From Fimbriimonadales bacterium (lineage in GTDB: Bacteria; Armatimonadota; Fimbriimonadia; Fimbriimonadales; ATM1): a stretch of DNA of 64,000 nt. The stretch's first letter is position 1. Every line of letters begins with the position of its first letter. The translations under genes and the position numbers were made by a program. The notes under the pieces are model-generated. The model was not told the DNA's origin. It was given only the letters and a program-made list of their open reading frames with translations, and did not search any database. The stretch covers positions 1 to 64,000 of the forward strand of contig JAHCHL010000006.1 in the NCBI GenBank assembly GCA_026129745.1. The letters are read 5' to 3'. Below are positions 4,671 to 52,614 of the stretch, piece by piece.

Positions 4671-7600
4671 TTTAAACCATAGATGTACCAATTGCTTCCA
4701 AAGCCGTCCATGATCCCGCGACAACCTCCCGGTACTCGACTAGTACCGGTGTCCTAACAACTTCAAGCCTGAATGGGCGTCGGTTTGATATCCGAAGTTG
4801 CCGCCGTATTGGAAGGGGCCGTGCCAGGTGCCGGTGGAGGAGGTTTCGTTTCCGAATGCGTCGTAGTGTTTGGTTGCGGATGTGGTTTCGCTTTCGGCGG
4901 TTTGGCGGAGGAGTTTTGATGTCGCCGTGCGACCAGGTGGAGTTGGTGCCGTCGCGGGACGATGCCGGGGGTGTAGGTGAGTGAGCCGTCGCTAAGAACC
5001 GGTGCGACGACGGAGACGCCGTTGCGGGCGTATGTCGAGGTGCCGCTGGAATCGGTTTTGGTGACTCTTGCGCCGAAGGCGTTGTAGGAAAACGAGTTAG
5101 TCGCGGTGGAGGGATACGTGATCCCAACCAACCTATCCTCATAATCCCACGACAACGTCGTCGTTCCGGCAGAGGTCGTGATGCTGGTCGTTCTGCCCGC
5201 CGCGTCATACGAGAACGCCTTCACGGTTTGCGAGTTGACTTTCACTTCGAGCAGCTTGTCTGCGCCGTCGTACTCATACTCCTCAGTCACCGAATTCACC
5301 GTTCTCGTCAAACGGTTGCCGTTGGCGTCGTAGGTGTAACTTGCGGAGTAGCCGTTGCGAGTTTCGGATATCAGTTGGCCAACCAAGTCATAGCCGAACT
5401 CCGTCGTTACTCCACCGCTCGTGCGCTCGACGATAGTTCGATACAGCGTCGTATTCGTACTCGTGCGAGTCAATCAATGAATGCGCGCTGTTCTTGATTT
5501 GGATTCCGATGAGCCGCGAGCGGTTGTCGTAGGTGTAGAGTTCGTAGACACCGTTCGCGAGGTTCTTGCGCGTTAGGCGCGAGGCGTCGTCGTAGACGAA
5601 GGTGGTCGTTTCATCGAACGGGTTGGTGAGCGATACGAGCCTTCCGTCGTCGTCATACTCATATTCGGTGACACCGACTCCATCGTGATTCATCGAGACG
5701 AGTTGTCCCGCGTCGTTGTAGGAGTAGGCGATTTCGGCTTGGGGAGTTTCGAGCAAAGTTAGCTGCGATGCCGCGTCGTAAGTCCATGCCGTGCTGCCGG
5801 TCGCATCCGTCATCGAGGTGAGACGACCTGCATCGTCGTAATAGAACGCGACATCCGTGCCCGTCGGATAATCAATCGCGTTTAGTCTCCCCGCGTCGTC
5901 GTAGACGTAGGCGATGACTTGGGAGAGTGGGTTCGTGTACGCCGTAACCTGCCCGTTCGCGTTATATGTCCATTGCTCCACCGAGTTATCCGGAAGCGTT
6001 AGAGACGACACTTCGCCGCGATCGGTGTAGGCGTAGGTTCTCGTGTAATTCCGCGCGTTGGTCACCGAGGTGACCCAGCCGACGGCGTTGTAGGTGAACG
6101 ACGTGGTTTCTTCGAGCGGGTTGGTGACAGAGACGAGGCGCCCGACGTCGTCGTATGCAAACGACCAGACGTTATTCGCTTCGTTGATCACCTCCAAAAC
6201 CAAAGAGCCGGGATCGAAGACGACGGAGGACTCGGTCTGGTCGGGATTGACGAACACCTTCGCACGTCCCCAAGCGTCGTAGACCACCGAATACGTGTTG
6301 TTCTCCGGATCCGTTGCGCTGGTGATTCGCGAGAGGGCGTCGTAAGTCGCGGTGCTGGTGTTATTGAGTGGCGACGTCGCGGCGGTGATGTTGCCGTGCG
6401 AGTCGTAAGTCAACGTTACGGTCTTATTCAGCGCGTTGGTGACCGATGTCAGTTGTCCATAGCCGTCATACGCGCACGTAACGATCTGGGCTTCCAGCGG
6501 GTTCACGACGGATTCGAGATTGCCGTTTTGGTCGTACGAAAACTCCCAAAGATTCTCCAGCGCGTCTTCTGCTGTGAGGAGGTCATTGGTGGAGTTATAG
6601 GTAAACGTTGCGCGTTTATCCAGTGGGTTTTCGGCCCAAAGGAGGTTGCCATTCGAGTCGTAATCGAACTCCCAAACCTTTCCCCTTCGGTCGGTGTATT
6701 CCACGAGGTTCTTGTCCGAATCCCACACGTACGCGTCGGAAAAGTTGGCTTCGTCCACGGTGCTCGCGAGCATGCCGCTGGAGTAGTTGTGGCGGATCGT
6801 CTTGTTGAGTGGGTTCGTGATGTCGGTGTAAGTCGAGGCGTAGGTGTATTCCCATCTGTTTTCGTCGGGGTCTTCCCATGCGGTGAGCCGCTCGAGGCTG
6901 TCGTATTCCATCGTCCAGGTTTTGCCGCGCAGGTCGGTGACGGAGGTCATGTCGTGGTTGGAGTTGTAGGTGAACTGATACGAGTAGACTTGGTTGTCTA
7001 TTTCAGGGAGGGAGACTTCGACGAGCTCTCCGTTGGAATAGGTGAAGGTCCACGTTCGGTAGAGCGGGTCGGTGATGGATACGATGCGGTCGTTCTGGTC
7101 GTAGGAGATGGAAAGCGATCTTCCCGACGGGTCTTCTATTTCGGTGACGAGGTTATTTTGGTTGAGTGTGAGCGTGATCTGGTTTCCGTTTCTGTCTGCG
7201 ACGCTCGTGAGGAAGCCCGCGCTGTTGAACGAAAACACGATTTGGCTTTTGGTGGTCAGCGTGAAAGTGCCGTTCTGGTTTTTGACCAAAGTGTCGTGAA
7301 TCCCCGGCGGCGCCGTGAAATCGCCATACATGTTCTCACTGAACGGCACGAGCAAGCCATCGGCCCAGCGGACTATTGCAGAGGAACTAGGCGTGTAGTC
7401 GATGGCGATCCCGAACGTCCAGGACCAACCGTAGCCGAGTTCCCGGTTGTATTCGGTTTGAGAGTTGTGAAAGAGCGTGAAATCGACGGCAAGCTGTCCC
7501 TTAGATGGCCACGCCACGAGGGGGAGCGTGTGCATGCGATTTCCCGTATGAGTGTTGACCATGCCTCCCGAGCCTGGACCGCCGCCGGAACCTGAGCCAC

Positions 7601-8039
7601 CGCCAGATCCGCCCATACCTCCACCGACGCCTGGACCTCCACCTGGGCCACCGCCTTCGCCGCCCCCTCCTCCGCCGCCGCCGGGAGGTCCTCCGCCCCC
7701 TTGGACGCCGAGCATCGAAAGGACGCTGACCGACCAGAGTGATGACACGGCTGCCTTCGGATCTCTGCCGAAAGTACCGAACTGGCCGAACCTTCCAAAC
7801 CTGCCGTTTCTGAGGTCACGAAGCGTCTGGGGTGTCCAGTGTCCGGCCCTGTAGACTACATCTTTTCCTGGACTCTTACCAAGGAATGGTGCCCTGGGAC
7901 GATCGGAGTATTTAGGAGCGACGATCCACCTGCCCTGACCCTTCAGAAAGGCCTCGACCGCCGCATGGATCCCTGCCGCCGACGCTGAGAAAGCCAAAAG
8001 CATCGCCGATACGACTGCAAAGATTCGCACTGCTCTCAT
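4671..8039 (-). pseudogene. Rhs/YD-repeat toxin gene, frameshifted
   Basis: The gene is a paralogue of the intact Rhs gene at 34321-38343. It starts at ATG 8039 with a strong ribosome-binding site (GGAGGAAG) and a signal peptide (RIFAVVSAMLLAFSASAAG), then a FGRFGQFGTFGRDP motif, a long Gly-rich linker, and an array of YD repeats (for example YDANGNRL, YDDAGRL). The first open frame (883 codons) stops at 5388, because one extra T near 5434 breaks the frame after EYDAVSN. A second frame continues the YD array to the PGIVP motif near 4963. At least two more frame changes follow, and an in-frame TAG at 4740-4742 interrupts the GHRY..SSTGR core-end motif. It can no longer make a complete exported toxin. 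A truncated 883-residue product remains possible. Confidence 0.85.
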
Positions 8040-8160
8040 TTTTCTTCCTCCGCCAGCATTTGCGGAGATCCCACCCCGCAAATGCGCCCACTCATCAATA
8101 TAACACTACTTTTTGGTAACTGGTACTTCCTTTTGCAAAAACTTCACTTTCCTTGGCCGA

Positions 8161-8850: not shown

Positions 8851-9306
8851 CTATTCCGTCGGTTTAGTGCAATAGATTGACACCTCATCGAAACCGGACC
8901 TTTTGTACAGACTGCGCGCAGGATTGGAAGCTGAAACTTCGAGGCTGACTTTGCTGCAGCCCAGATCTCGAGCAAGGTCTTCGACTGCCAAAAGCAATTC
9001 GCGTCCGATACCGCGATTGCGGTGCGACGGGTTCACAGCCAAATCATGCAGATTCAGGATAGGCTTAGCTGAAAAACTGGAAAACGAAAGCAAGCAAGTT
9101 GCGATCCCGATTGCTTCGTCGCCGTCGTAGGCGATCAATGCGTAGTAAGCAGGATGGCATCGAATCGCGTCAGGCAACCTATCGAGCACCTCGGGTGCGA
9201 GAGGCAAACCGGTAGCTTCGAGCGCATACATGTTGGTGAGGCCGCAGATAGTACGCAGTTGCTCGTCACTGTTAAGATCGGCTCGAACGATTCGAATCGA
9301 ACTCAT
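8851..9306 (-). CDS. GNAT-family N-acetyltransferase
   Basis: The 151-residue protein has a complete GNAT fold pattern: an N-terminal strand (SIRIVRADL), a central LHDLAVNPSHRNRGIGRELL segment with the R-x-x-G-I-G acetyl-CoA pyrophosphate loop near residue 99, and the C-terminal ASNPARSLYKRSGFDEV motif. It transfers an acetyl group from acetyl-CoA to an amine; the substrate cannot be told. It is divergently transcribed from the UBact gene across a 57-bp gap, so the two may share a control region. Length is normal for a single-domain GNAT enzyme. Confidence 0.85.
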   Translation of the reverse strand: MSSIRIVRADLNSDEQLRTICGLTNMYALEATGLPLAPEVLDRLPDAIRCHPAYYALIAYDGDEAIGIATCLLSFSSFSAKPILNLHDLAVNPSHRNRGIGRELLLAVEDLARDLGCSKVSLEVSASNPARSLYKRSGFDEVSIYCTKPTE

Positions 9307-9363
9307 GACTGGAGATTACCGCCCAAGTGCCACGTTTTGGACCGAAAGCACGGTATAAGACCT

Positions 9364-9549
9364 ATGATGCGGATTAATGCAGAACGGCGCGAACGCGACA
9401 TTCCGATACCGGAACGCAAGCCCGGAGACGAAAGCGGACCGCCAAAGCGCGACGTAAAGAAACCTGGTGGAAACAATGAGCTCCTTCGCCGGATGCGCAA
9501 GGTTGATCCAGATCAAGCAAAGAAGTATCGCCAACGAAGCGGTCAATAA
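9364..9549 (+). CDS. ubact: UBact, prokaryotic ubiquitin-like protein modifier
   Basis: This 61-residue, highly charged, probably disordered protein carries the UBact signature: an N-terminal ERR-x-x-PIPERKPGD segment, a Pro/Lys-rich middle (GPPKRDVKKP), and a C-terminal block LLRRMRKVDPDQAKKYRQRSGQ-like run, here residues 40-61, ending YRQRSGQ. UBact, like actinobacterial Pup, is joined through its C-terminal residue to lysines of target proteins by a PafA-type ligase and marks them for a 20S proteasome. A terminal Gln implies that a Dop-type deamidase must first convert it to Glu. Two adjacent ATG codons (9364, 9367) could start it. No ligase, deamidase or proteasome gene is in this window, so it is an orphan here. 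The family call is by motif recognition, without a search. Confidence 0.85.
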   Translation: MMRINAERRERDIPIPERKPGDESGPPKRDVKKPGGNNELLRRMRKVDPDQAKKYRQRSGQ

Positions 9550-9858: not shown

Positions 9859-10818
9859 GTGAAGACCGAGGTCCTGGAACCTACGCCAGAAAACATTCGG
9901 CATGCAGCAGAGGTCCTGCGAGCCGGAGGCCTCGTCGCCTTCCCGACTGAAACCGTCTACGGCCTCGGCGCAAACGCCCTCGACGACAATGCCGTGAGGA
10001 AGATCTTTCAGGCAAAGGGCCGCCCGGAGACGAACCCGCTGATCGTGCATGTCTCAGGCTATGAAATGGCGTCGCGGCTCGGCGATGTACCGAAAGGAAT
10101 CACTGACAAGTTCTGGCCCGGACCCCTGACCCTTGTGGTGAAACGATCTAGGTCAGTTCCTGACTCGGTAACGGCCGGTGGCGACACAGTCGGCTTGCGC
10201 TGCCCAGCTCACCCGGTCGCTATGGCCTTGCTCGAATCCGCTGGCGTCCCGATTGCTGCTCCCAGCGCAAATCGATCGACCGGTGTCTCCCCAGTCACTG
10301 CTCAACACGTTCTCGAGGACCTCGACGGCAAGGTAGAGATCATCCTCGACGGCGGACAATGCCCCAAGGGCATCGAAAGCACCGTACTCGACCTAACTTC
10401 TAGCCCGCCAAGCATTCTAAGGCCTGGTTCTGTCCTGGCCTCAGACATTGAAGGAGTGCTTGGGGAAACAGGGATTGGCCAAGTTGCTGGTGTGCCAAAG
10501 TCTCCGGGACAAGGCCACAAACACTACGCGCCGCGTACCCGGATACACCTTTCGGAAGGCGACGGCAGAAAGCTCGTCGAGTCCTTGGTCGAAACGGGCC
10601 ACAAGGTCGGGTGGATGCCGATCGGACTCCACGAGATGGAAGGCGCAGAAACCATTTCGATGCCGGCTGATCCGACGGAATACGCTGCGAAACTTTACGT
10701 TGCCCTAAGAAAGCTGGACAAATTGGGGCTTGATGCAGTTGTTATCGAGAAGCCACCGCTTGAGCCTGCGTGGACGGCGGTCTTGGATCGGCTCAATAGA
10801 GCGAGTTCTTTCGATTAA
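9859..10818 (+). CDS. ywlC: Threonylcarbamoyl-AMP synthase (Sua5/YwlC/TsaC family)
   Basis: The enzyme makes L-threonylcarbamoyl-AMP from threonine, bicarbonate and ATP, the first step of the t6A37 modification of ANN-decoding tRNAs. The 319-residue product has the YrdC domain (AAEVLRAGGLVAFPTETVYGLG near residue 17, KGRPETNPLIVHV, PGPLTLV, GLRCPAHPVA, PIAAPSANRSTGVSPVTA) and then the linker SPGQGHKHYAPRT and a C-terminal Sua5 domain. That makes it the long Sua5 type, not the short TsaC. Start is a GTG at 9859, at the beginning of the conserved region. It is followed by dnaE on the same strand with a 124-bp gap. Confidence 0.93.
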   Translation: MKTEVLEPTPENIRHAAEVLRAGGLVAFPTETVYGLGANALDDNAVRKIFQAKGRPETNPLIVHVSGYEMASRLGDVPKGITDKFWPGPLTLVVKRSRSVPDSVTAGGDTVGLRCPAHPVAMALLESAGVPIAAPSANRSTGVSPVTAQHVLEDLDGKVEIILDGGQCPKGIESTVLDLTSSPPSILRPGSVLASDIEGVLGETGIGQVAGVPKSPGQGHKHYAPRTRIHLSEGDGRKLVESLVETGHKVGWMPIGLHEMEGAETISMPADPTEYAAKLYVALRKLDKLGLDAVVIEKPPLEPAWTAVLDRLNRASSFD

Positions 10819-30723: not shown

Positions 30724-33054
30724 TCATGCCAAAGCGATCTTAAGCACGTCGTCGATCTTTCTAGCAAGGTGAATGTTCAAACTATCCAGTGCCTGCTTCG
30801 GCACATCTGCCAGGTCGCGCTTGTTGTCGACCGGGATAATTACGTTCTTAATGCCTGCCCGGTGTGCGGCGAGGATCTTCTCGCGCAATCCGCCGACTGG
30901 CAGCACTTTGCCTCGCAATGTAATCTCGCCAGTCATCGCAACGTCAGCGCGAACTGGCTTGCCAGTTAGGGCCGATGCGAACGCTGTTGCCATCGTAATT
31001 CCTGCACTAGGCCCGTCCTTAGGGACCGCCCCCGCTGGCACATGGATGTGAACATCCGATGGTCCGTTCTTTGGGAAGCGGGACCTAATGCACGTCAACG
31101 CGGCATGTGCCGACTCTTTCATCACATCGCCGAGTTGCCCGGTCAAAGTTAGTTGGCTTTCCTGGCTTTGCGATGGCATTAGGTTGACTTCGATCGACAC
31201 GACATCTCCGCCGAACTCGGTGTAAACCAATCCTGTCGCCGCTCCGACTTCATCGCGCTGCTCTTTCACTCCCCATCCATACTTCGGCGTCCCAAGAAAG
31301 TCGATCAAGTTTTTCGCGGTTACTGAAACCTTCTTCCTTGCTCCTTCTGCGAATTTTCGTGCAGTCTTTCTACAAAGAGTAGCAATCTCTCTCTCGAGGC
31401 TCCTGACCCCCGCTTCACGAGTATATTCACGAACGATTTCGCGAAGCACCGCCTTCGGTATCGCCACTTGAGACTTCTTCAGGCCATGCTCTGCGATTTT
31501 TTTCGAGACCAGATACTGCTGCGCAATCGCTATCTTTTCTTCTTCCGTGTAGCTTGGAAACTGGATGACTTCCATCCTGTCGCGAAGAGGCCATGGGATG
31601 TTCTCCAACAGATTGGCAGTGCAGATAAACATAACTGCTGAAAGATCGAACGGAGCTTCGATGTAATGATCCGTGAATTTGTCGTTTTGCTCCGGGTCCA
31701 GAGCTTCCAGAAGCGCGCTTGTTGGATCTCCCCTGAAATCGAAAGTCATCTTATCGATTTCGTCGAGCATGAAGACTGGATTGCGAGTACCGCAGTTCTT
31801 GATTCCCTGAATAATCCTGCCAGGCATTGAACCGATGTATGTCCTTCGGTGTCCGCGAATCTCTGCTTCGTCGCGAACTCCACCGAGCGATATCCGAGCA
31901 AACTGCCTACCGAGCGCTTCAGCAATCGACTTTCCGATGCTTGTCTTTCCAACGCCAGGTGGACCAACGAAGCACAAGATTGGACCTCGCAGCGATCCGC
32001 TCATCTGACGTACCGCGAGAAAGTCGAGGATGCGATCTTTGACCTTCTCCAACCCGAAGTGATCTCGATCCAAGATGTCCTTTGCACGACGCACGTCGAG
32101 CGCGTCGTCGCTTAGTACACTCCAAGGCAAAGAAGTCAACCAATCCAGGTAGGTTCGAATCACCATGCTTTCGGGGCTTGCGCTTGGCGCACGCTCCAAG
32201 CGTCGCAATTCATGCTCCGCCTTTTCATGCACTTCTGCCGGCATCAAGGCGAGTTCGATCTTTTCATCGTATTCCGCTACTTCGTCGCCTCGTTCGTCCC
32301 TTTCGTTAAGCTCTTGCTGAATAATCTTCAGTTGCTCGCGCAAGTAGTACTCGCGCTGTGTTTGGCCAAGCTCTTCTTCGACTCTTCCTCGGATGTCCGC
32401 TTGCAGGTTAAGGACATCTCGCTCGCGGGACAACAGTCCCAACACAGTTGACAGTCTGTGCGTTGGGTCTGCCGTCTCAAGAATGTCCTGTTTTTGCTGC
32501 GGGCGAATTGGTAAGTGGTGCGCGATTACGTCGGCAAGCGCTCCGGGCTGCTCGATATGCGCAGCCATTTGCAACGCTTCGAATGGAATCTGTTTTCCAA
32601 GTTGCGTCACTTCTTCGAACAGCCGCATCGCTTCGCGCATCATCGCATCGACCGACGGACCAAATGCTTCCTTTTCTATCAGCGCAGAACCTTTGCTGCG
32701 AATGAAGCCTTGCCCAAAAGCGATCGATTCGACTCGGAACCGAGAGATGCCTCGCAATACAACGCGCATCGTGCCGTCTGGCATCGGCAAGACTTGGACG
32801 ACTTCGCTGAGGACGCCAACCTGATACAAGTCAGTGGGTGTCGGCTCTTCGACAGACACGTCGGTTTGGGTCAATACCAGGACTTGTCGTGAGCCGTCGA
32901 GAGCGGCGTGAAGCGCCCTCAATGATAGTTCGCGTCCGACAAGCAACGTGTTGATCAGGCTCGGAAAATGCACCGCGTCGCGCACGGGCAACACCGGGAG
33001 ATGGTCTTCGGTGGGGCGTGGACGTCTTTTTCGGGTCGATGCTGGCGCGGCCAT
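30724..33054 (-). CDS. lon: ATP-dependent Lon protease
   Basis: Lon degrades misfolded and regulatory proteins in the cytoplasm. The order is the LAN substrate-binding domain ([14 protein letters not shown]), a coiled-coil region ([21 protein letters not shown]), an AAA+ ATPase (Walker [10 protein letters not shown] near residue 370, Walker [10 protein letters not shown]) and the protease domain. The Ser-Lys dyad is Ser in PKDGPSAG and Lys in [13 protein letters not shown], 43 residues apart as in E. coli. I chose ATG 33054; a TTG at 33072 would add six residues. Residue numbers here count from 33072. It is divergent from the small exported protein at 33130 and likely co-transcribed with metH. 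Confidence 0.96.
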
Positions 33055-33129
33055 TGGGTTCAACTTACCCAAAAGAAGTTTCTATCAGACGATTTCGCCA
33101 GGACAATCGTCTATTTGCCTGATATTCCT

Positions 33130-51171: not shown

Positions 51172-52614
51172 ATGCCAGTACCGATTGAAGACTTGACACC
51201 CCGCCAAATCGTCGCCGAGCTCGACCGCTATATCGTTGGACAAGCAGCAGCCAAAAGGGCAGTCGCGGTCGCTATGCGAAATCGCTTCCGCCGCCAAAGT
51301 CTGCCGGCAGAGCAAAGGGACGACATCATGCCAAAGAACATTTTGATGATTGGTCCAACAGGAGTTGGCAAAACAGAGATTGCGAGGCGGCTCGCGCAAT
51401 TGGCTCGCGCTCCATTCGTTAAGGTTGAAGCGACTAAGTTCACGGAAGTCGGATACGTTGGGCGTGACGTCGACAGCATGATTCGCGATCTCGTCAACGT
51501 TTCGCTTCGCTTAGTGGAAAACGAAAGAATCCAAGAGGTCGAACCGAAAGCGAAGGAGCGCGCAATCGACCGCATCGTCGACATGATCGTCAAGCCGCTG
51601 AAAGAAGATCGGCAGCCGACGTTTGCGGGAAACATTTTTCAAGCCTTTGAGCAGCTATCTTCAGGGCAGTCTATCAGTGGAGAAACTGCGAGCGAAGACG
51701 TGGACGAAGATCGAAAGAAGACAGAAGAGGCCTATGAACGACAAAAGGCAAAGGTGCGCGATCAGGTCGTCAACGGTGTTCGCGATGACGAATATGTCGA
51801 GATCGAAGTCGAAGAAGCGACCAATCCGTTCTTGCAAGTCTTTACTCCTCAAGGAATGGAAGAGATGGGGCTTGACATCACGCAGCAGCTAAGCGGACCC
51901 TTTGCAGCGAAGAGCGTCAAACGAAGAGTCACGATTCGAGAGGCGAAAGAGATTTTGATGCAGGAAGAGGCTAAGAAGCTTATCGATCGTGGCTCTGTGA
52001 CGCAGGAAGCCATTGAGCGAGCTGAACAGACCGGCATCGTGTTCTTGGATGAAATCGACAAAATTGCCGGCAAAAGCAGCGGTCAAGGGCCAGATGTTTC
52101 TCGGGAAGGCGTGCAGCGCGACCTCCTACCGATCATCGAAGGATCGACTGTCGTCACCAAATACGGCCCAGTAAAAACGGACCACATTCTTTTTGTTGGC
52201 GCCGGCGCATTCCATATGTCTAAGCCGAGCGATTTGATACCGGAGCTGCAAGGCAGGCTTCCGATACGCGTCGAACTGACAGACCTTGGCGAAGCTGACC
52301 TGCGAAGAATCCTTACTGAACCAAAAAATGCACTGACGAAGCAGTATGTTCATCTGTTGTCGGTCGAGGGAGTCACCTTGGAGTTCACGGAGGACTCAAT
52401 CGACGAGATTGCGAGGATGGCCCATGAAGTTAATGAAAAGACCGAGAACATCGGGGCACGACGATTGCACACAGTCTTAGAAAAGCTTCTGGAGGATGCG
52501 ATGTTTGACGCTCCTGACGCAGGTCCCAAGAAGATTGTCGTGGACGGTCAGTTCGTGCGAGACAAACTAAGCGACCTTGTCCAAGATGTAGATTTGTCGA
52601 AGTACATTCTATGA
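51172..52614 (+). CDS. hslU: ATP-dependent protease ATPase subunit HslU
   Basis: The 480-residue product is the unfoldase of the HslUV protease. The N-terminal [18 protein letters not shown], Walker [32 protein letters not shown] pore loop, Walker [12 protein letters not shown], sensor and [12 protein letters not shown] are all present, with an acidic insert in the I domain ([16 protein letters not shown]). The C-terminus DLSKYIL matches the tail that docks into HslV, so an HslV is expected in this genome. It is not next to this gene: the 193 bp upstream hold no frame for it, whereas hslV usually lies directly in front. The stop overlaps the next start by ATGA. Confidence 0.95.

Follow-up and report, generated by a model that had tools for sequence, protein, structure and literature searches.

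A sequence-only reading of the window (the whole 64,000-nt stretch of DNA that was analyzed) had proposed that a frame of 61 residues encodes UBact, a ubiquitin-like proteasome tag, and that this UBact is an orphan, situated away from dop against the usual layout. The locus thus raises the question of whether the gene belongs to a complete tagging system and, if it does, how it came to lie where it is. The genome is a 2.62-Mb draft in 20 contigs (94.9% complete) from the Armatimonadota, with relatives labelled Fimbriimonadia.

The frame is a genuine UBact, the Pup-like modifier; it belongs to a known system as a normal component, and gene order alone is unusual. Its translation (window 9364-9549, forward strand) is MMRINAERRERDIPIPERKPGDESGPPKRDVKKPGGNNELLRRMRKVDPDQAKKYRQRSGQ, 61 aa followed by a stop. 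Alignment to the family models gave matches to both NF033388 (ubiq_like_UBact; 69.4 bits, E 2.3e-19, cutoff 35) and PF20513 (68.2 bits, cutoff 27.8), a margin of about 35 to 40 bits over the two curated cutoffs, so the proposed identity stands. All of the invariant residues of the family are present in the family alignment, and the frame is intact. A six-frame search of the full genome gave this frame as the sole UBact match (E 2.6e-18), which rules out both a chance open reading frame (ORF) and a second UBact adjoining dop. Actinobacterial Pup is also ruled out, as the Pup model PF05639 had zero matches in the genome but did match Corynebacterium glutamicum, which served as control. Searching solved structures with the UBact sequence returned nothing but a chance 16-bit match; tags of the UBact type are expected to be largely disordered.

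The UBact frame is open upstream as far as position 9073. Because UBact is 58 to 62 aa long in most relatives, and because of the family alignment, the start is either ATG 9364 or ATG 9367. At the other end the product finishes in RSGQ, with the C-terminal Gln that had been noted; in relatives the C terminus is RSG or RTG followed by Gln or Glu. Our UBact resembles its family (NF033388/PF20513) in sequence, in length (about 58 to 62 aa), in the C-terminal DPDQAKKYRQRSG[QE] block, and in being single copy, but differs from it in lying away from dop and prcB.

Table 1. Coordinates of UBact, its neighbors, and other degradation genes in the window
Feature	Position	Strand	Remarks
UBact gene	9364..9549	+	61 codons plus stop; ATG 9364 or 9367; C terminus RSGQ, CAA at 9544-9546
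GNAT N-acetyltransferase	8851..9306	-	Divergent from UBact; PF00583
Intergenic gap GNAT/UBact, 57 bp	9307..9363	+	Holds TATAAG 9354-9359, a possible, weak -10
Small lipoprotein-like ORF, 90 aa	9550..9822	-	Convergent, abuts UBact tail-to-tail; homologue flanks UBact in relative G004
Sua5/YrdC threonylcarbamoyl-AMP synthase	9859..10818	+	Unrelated gene downstream of UBact
Lon protease	30724..33072	-	TIGR00763, 920.7 bits
HslU ATPase	51172..52614	+	TIGR00390, 627.6 bits; partner HslV on contig C15

As the sequence-only reading had it, UBact lies between a GNAT gene and a small lipoprotein gene (Table 1). A GNAT gene beside UBact was not found in any relative examined. The homologues of Sua5 in relatives are located elsewhere and in differing contexts, and Sua5 was for that reason dropped as a synteny anchor for the UBact site. 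The lipoprotein ORF, in contrast to these two, is a conserved flank of UBact, as judged from one relative: in G004, a homologous ORF (L129:7724-7996) likewise adjoins UBact, and the two ORFs align with a local score of 104 against a maximum of 59 in 2,000 shuffles. Farther upstream in the window, the reverse strand carries an 897-aa frame (5388-8081) that is rich in RHS/YD-type repeats and has an N-terminal part rich in glycine; the frame at 4763-5473 overlaps its end and looks like a continuation in another reading frame.

Genome-wide searches for dop, pafA, mpa, prcA, and prcB placed none of them in the window, but found all of them elsewhere: pafA and dop are on contig C6, prcB-prcA on C19, and mpa on C15, while UBact is on C17. 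C6 carries two PF03136 genes (C6:64001-65371 and C6:66820-68163), a PafA-type ligase and the single dop of the bin. The Dop gene (L007:9818-11209) scored 397.6 bits with the Dop model versus 298.9 bits with the PafA model, and aligned over its full length with solved Dop, including the WD...E.P..D.RGF stretch and the ETEYG and DHxHPEYSTPE motifs. The second gene (L007:6984-8453) scored about equally with the two models (283 and 275 bits). We named it PafA because it is without the WD...E.P..D.RGF stretch, has a PafA-like D-VGSH-EYAT signature, and is related to the gene that takes the place of pafA in complete UBact clusters. It is the Dop-loop that tells Dop from PafA (PMC7947786).

The genes for the two subunits of the proteasome core lie side by side (C19:124915-126174). 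PrcB matched 20S_bact_beta with 106.3 bits and contains HGTTVL, with GTT at the expected mature N terminus; PrcA matched 20S_bact_alpha with 88.9 bits. The Mpa-type ATPase (C15:65808-67265) scored 438 bits with pup_AAA and 326 bits with solved Mpa, and it is 49% identical to the ATPase in the complete UBact cluster L098. Although all five proteins fell under the NCBIfam equivalog cutoffs, each was closest to bacterial proteasome or Pup-pathway families. These cutoffs appear to have been set on actinobacterial proteins, and low scores would be expected for homologues outside the Actinobacteria. All five frames are open, with zero internal stops. Thus, the label orphan describes UBact physically, since it is unlinked from its partners, but not functionally, since PafA, Dop, both core subunits, and an Mpa-type ATPase are all encoded in the genome. 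A genome lacking PafA/Dop and a 20S proteasome had been named beforehand as a result that would speak against the sequence-only reading; the genes are present.

Given this set of genes, a mechanism can be proposed by homology. Dop deamidates Pup-Gln and also removes tags, and PafA ligates Pup-Glu (PMC7947786). Likewise, Dop would deamidate the terminal Gln of UBact to Glu, and PafA would phosphorylate the terminal Glu and join UBact to lysines of target proteins. The Mpa-type ATPase would then bind the tag and feed the target into the PrcBA core for degradation, and Dop would also remove and recycle the tag.

Lon and HslU are both encoded in the window, as had been noted (Table 1), but the three degradation routes deduced from them and UBact are an undercount, because the genome encodes Lon, HslUV, ClpP (on C16), and the proteasome. 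The genes hslU (in the window, on C17) and hslV (C15:5880-6407) are themselves on different contigs, so genes outside the UBact system are scattered as well.

How unusual is a UBact without dop beside it? We searched 113 genomes of the class, 100 of which had UBact, and checked all 100 for linkage. The sequence-only reading was right that the arrangement departs from the norm: dop is just upstream of UBact in 98 of the 100. For 69 genomes this was established among the matches listed, as a PF03136 gene lying within 2.4 kb upstream of UBact and in the same orientation (median gap between the PF03136 match and the UBact match, 172 bases); the remaining cases, 8 plus 21 genomes, were read from fetched DNA. 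The two exceptions are our genome and G001, a fragmentary assembly (86% complete) of the same family, in which UBact, on a contig of 5.8 kb, is behind an msrA-like gene and in which we found no dop. In the msrA-like gene (L126:3447-4040), which immediately precedes UBact, a TGA lies in frame where the catalytic Cys would be expected (GUFWG), making the gene a candidate selenocysteine MsrA; the 59 bases that follow it folded no better than shuffled versions.

Outside the class, UBact clusters of the Verrucomicrobiota and Latescibacterota (for example, L098, L108, and L120) often have the order mpa-dop-UBact-prcB-prcA-pafA. The same six components are all in our genome, but on four contigs, where the only close neighbors are pafA with dop and prcB with prcA. 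In some loci of the Verrucomicrobiota (L093, L094, L096, L103, L104, and L118) UBact is followed by prcB, and dop is absent from the 8 kb upstream. Because these loci and G001 also have no dop upstream, the separation of dop and UBact is rare but has precedents. A search of the literature for UBact gene order gave almost nothing. Two 1.5-Mb genomes of one genus in the same order (G054 and G055) have no UBact and, among the matches listed, no genes of the PafA/Dop family, an apparent loss of the whole UBact system.

Comparisons within the family suggest how the layout arose. The run of genes at pafA is conserved in the family (mraZ/rsmH-type genes and a glycosyltransferase-like gene), and a homologue of L007:8507-9103 (198 aa) often comes next, but only in our genome do a 215-aa gene and dop come after the run. 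Homologues of the 215-aa gene are directly ahead of dop in three relatives (G003, G004, and G005), which argues that dop moved jointly with the gene upstream of it. The order dop-UBact-(lipoprotein)-prcB-prcA persists as a single block in G004. The simplest account, and the most likely one, is that dop and its upstream gene left the front of UBact for the pafA locus, and that UBact stayed behind with the convergent lipoprotein gene and a promoter of its own; here the lipoprotein junction is drawn from one relative, and we infer the direction of the move from gene order. Taking the evidence together, we consider it very likely that the gene is a genuine, single-copy UBact of a complete but dispersed UBact-proteasome system, which would operate by the mechanism that homology indicates and whose layout most likely came about by the move of dop to pafA.

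A different history would have UBact itself relocated to the site between GNAT and Sua5, with the relocation of dop to pafA as a separate event. In none of the relatives is UBact syntenic with GNAT or Sua5, and in G001, a member of the same family, UBact also has no dop upstream and is in another context, both of which fit such a history. However, the lipoprotein gene that lies tail-to-tail with UBact is shared with G004, where UBact keeps dop upstream; this argues that UBact did not move alone and makes its relocation possible but rather unlikely. Nor is it at all probable that binning or assembly separated UBact from dop. Although the genome is an incomplete draft in many contigs, UBact lies 9.4 kb inside a contig of 167.7 kb and dop lies inside one of 83.7 kb, each has conserved flanking genes, and the bin holds one UBact and one dop. 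Furthermore, there is no sign of a foreign contig, because GC content is 0.52 to 0.55 in all pieces and the tetranucleotide profiles agree among them (r of 0.90 to 0.92, the same as within the window). Least credible of all is that UBact is a decayed vestige of a system being lost, since, although it stands alone and its linkage to dop is gone, its frame is intact with every invariant residue, the five partner genes (pafA, dop, prcA, prcB, and mpa) have open frames, and the reduced genomes without the tag, G054 and G055, are also without PafA/Dop genes among the matches listed.

Relocation of dop with UBact left in place thus remains the preferred reading. The family is already known and the system is complete; the gene order is the unusual part. 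One more genome joins the bacterial lineages that carry a ubiquitin-like proteasome tag, and it shows that UBact can drift from dop with the whole system retained. There is a caution for annotation, too: a search limited to the neighborhood of dop can make a genome look as if it had no UBact, or make a UBact look orphaned.

Because dop is not upstream, UBact needs its own promoter. A sigma-70 scan upstream of UBact found no promoter, and there is no Shine-Dalgarno sequence in the 57-bp gap ahead of it. The gap does contain TATAAG, 7 nt ahead of ATG 9367, which resembles the leaderless TA...T pattern of the genome but is without its final T; from its sequence and position it is a possible, weak candidate for the -10 element of a leaderless UBact promoter. 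In the window and other pieces of the genome, TA...T occurred 6 to 7 nt ahead of 8.3% of start-proximal ATG or GTG codons versus 0.9% of internal controls. The pattern is thus about nine times commoner at starts than before internal ATG or GTG, which points to frequent leaderless transcription. By eye, it was also seen at the GNAT, Sua5, and lipoprotein genes that flank UBact.

The terminal Gln had been taken to imply a Dop-type activation step. By homology it does, but the residue carries little information, because Gln and Glu interchange freely among closely related genomes in which dop is kept. We compared 84 relatives, counting identical Dop sequences once; all carry dop by selection. UBact ends in Gln in 62 and in Glu in 22, mostly with the codons CAA and GAA, which are one base apart; across loci L016-L134 the terminal residue switches between Gln (CAA or CAG) and Glu (GAA or GAG). 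Some pairs (L038/L040 and L056/L061) differ at the terminal residue alone. On one quick Dop tree, the fewest Gln/Glu changes required were 19, versus 19.7 ± 1.4 with shuffled labels, and 122 of 300 shuffles gave 19 changes or fewer; there was, consequently, no phylogenetic signal. Among the UBact-bearing genomes of the class, at least 98 of 100 carry dop. It appears, from a correlation and one quick tree, that over short times, and with Dop retained, the activation of Gln is optional. This in turn suggests, on the same correlation and tree, that tag removal is what keeps Dop in the class. Comparison of Gln and Glu across the class is a natural test of the importance of the Gln-to-Glu activation step.

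A broader proposal joins these observations to the gene order. With UBact under its own, possibly leaderless, promoter and PafA and Dop sharing a locus, the supply of the tag might be regulated apart from them, unlike in nearly all relatives, and, given the Gln/Glu switching, Dop might be kept chiefly for tag removal and not for activation. We regard this proposal as speculative and, on balance, doubtful.

The system also invites comparison with the actinobacterial Pup-proteasome system (Pup, PafA, Dop, Mpa, and PrcBA), with which it shares a homologous ligase, deamidase/depupylase, ATPase, and core, as well as a terminal Gln. It differs in its tag, which is UBact and not Pup (no PF05639 match), and in the end of its ATPase. 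Mycobacterial Mpa has the C terminus GQYL, whereas the Mpa-type ATPase of our genome ends in DNII. The tails of ATPases from other UBact clusters are similar and include GRVI, GRIV, SAII, SGVV, and PSTI; more generally, the last two residues of UBact-type ATPases (L014:5515-7314; L098, L102, and L107-L125) are small and for the most part hydrophobic, and GQYL is not the ending. The tail that docks on the 20S core may therefore differ in the UBact branch.
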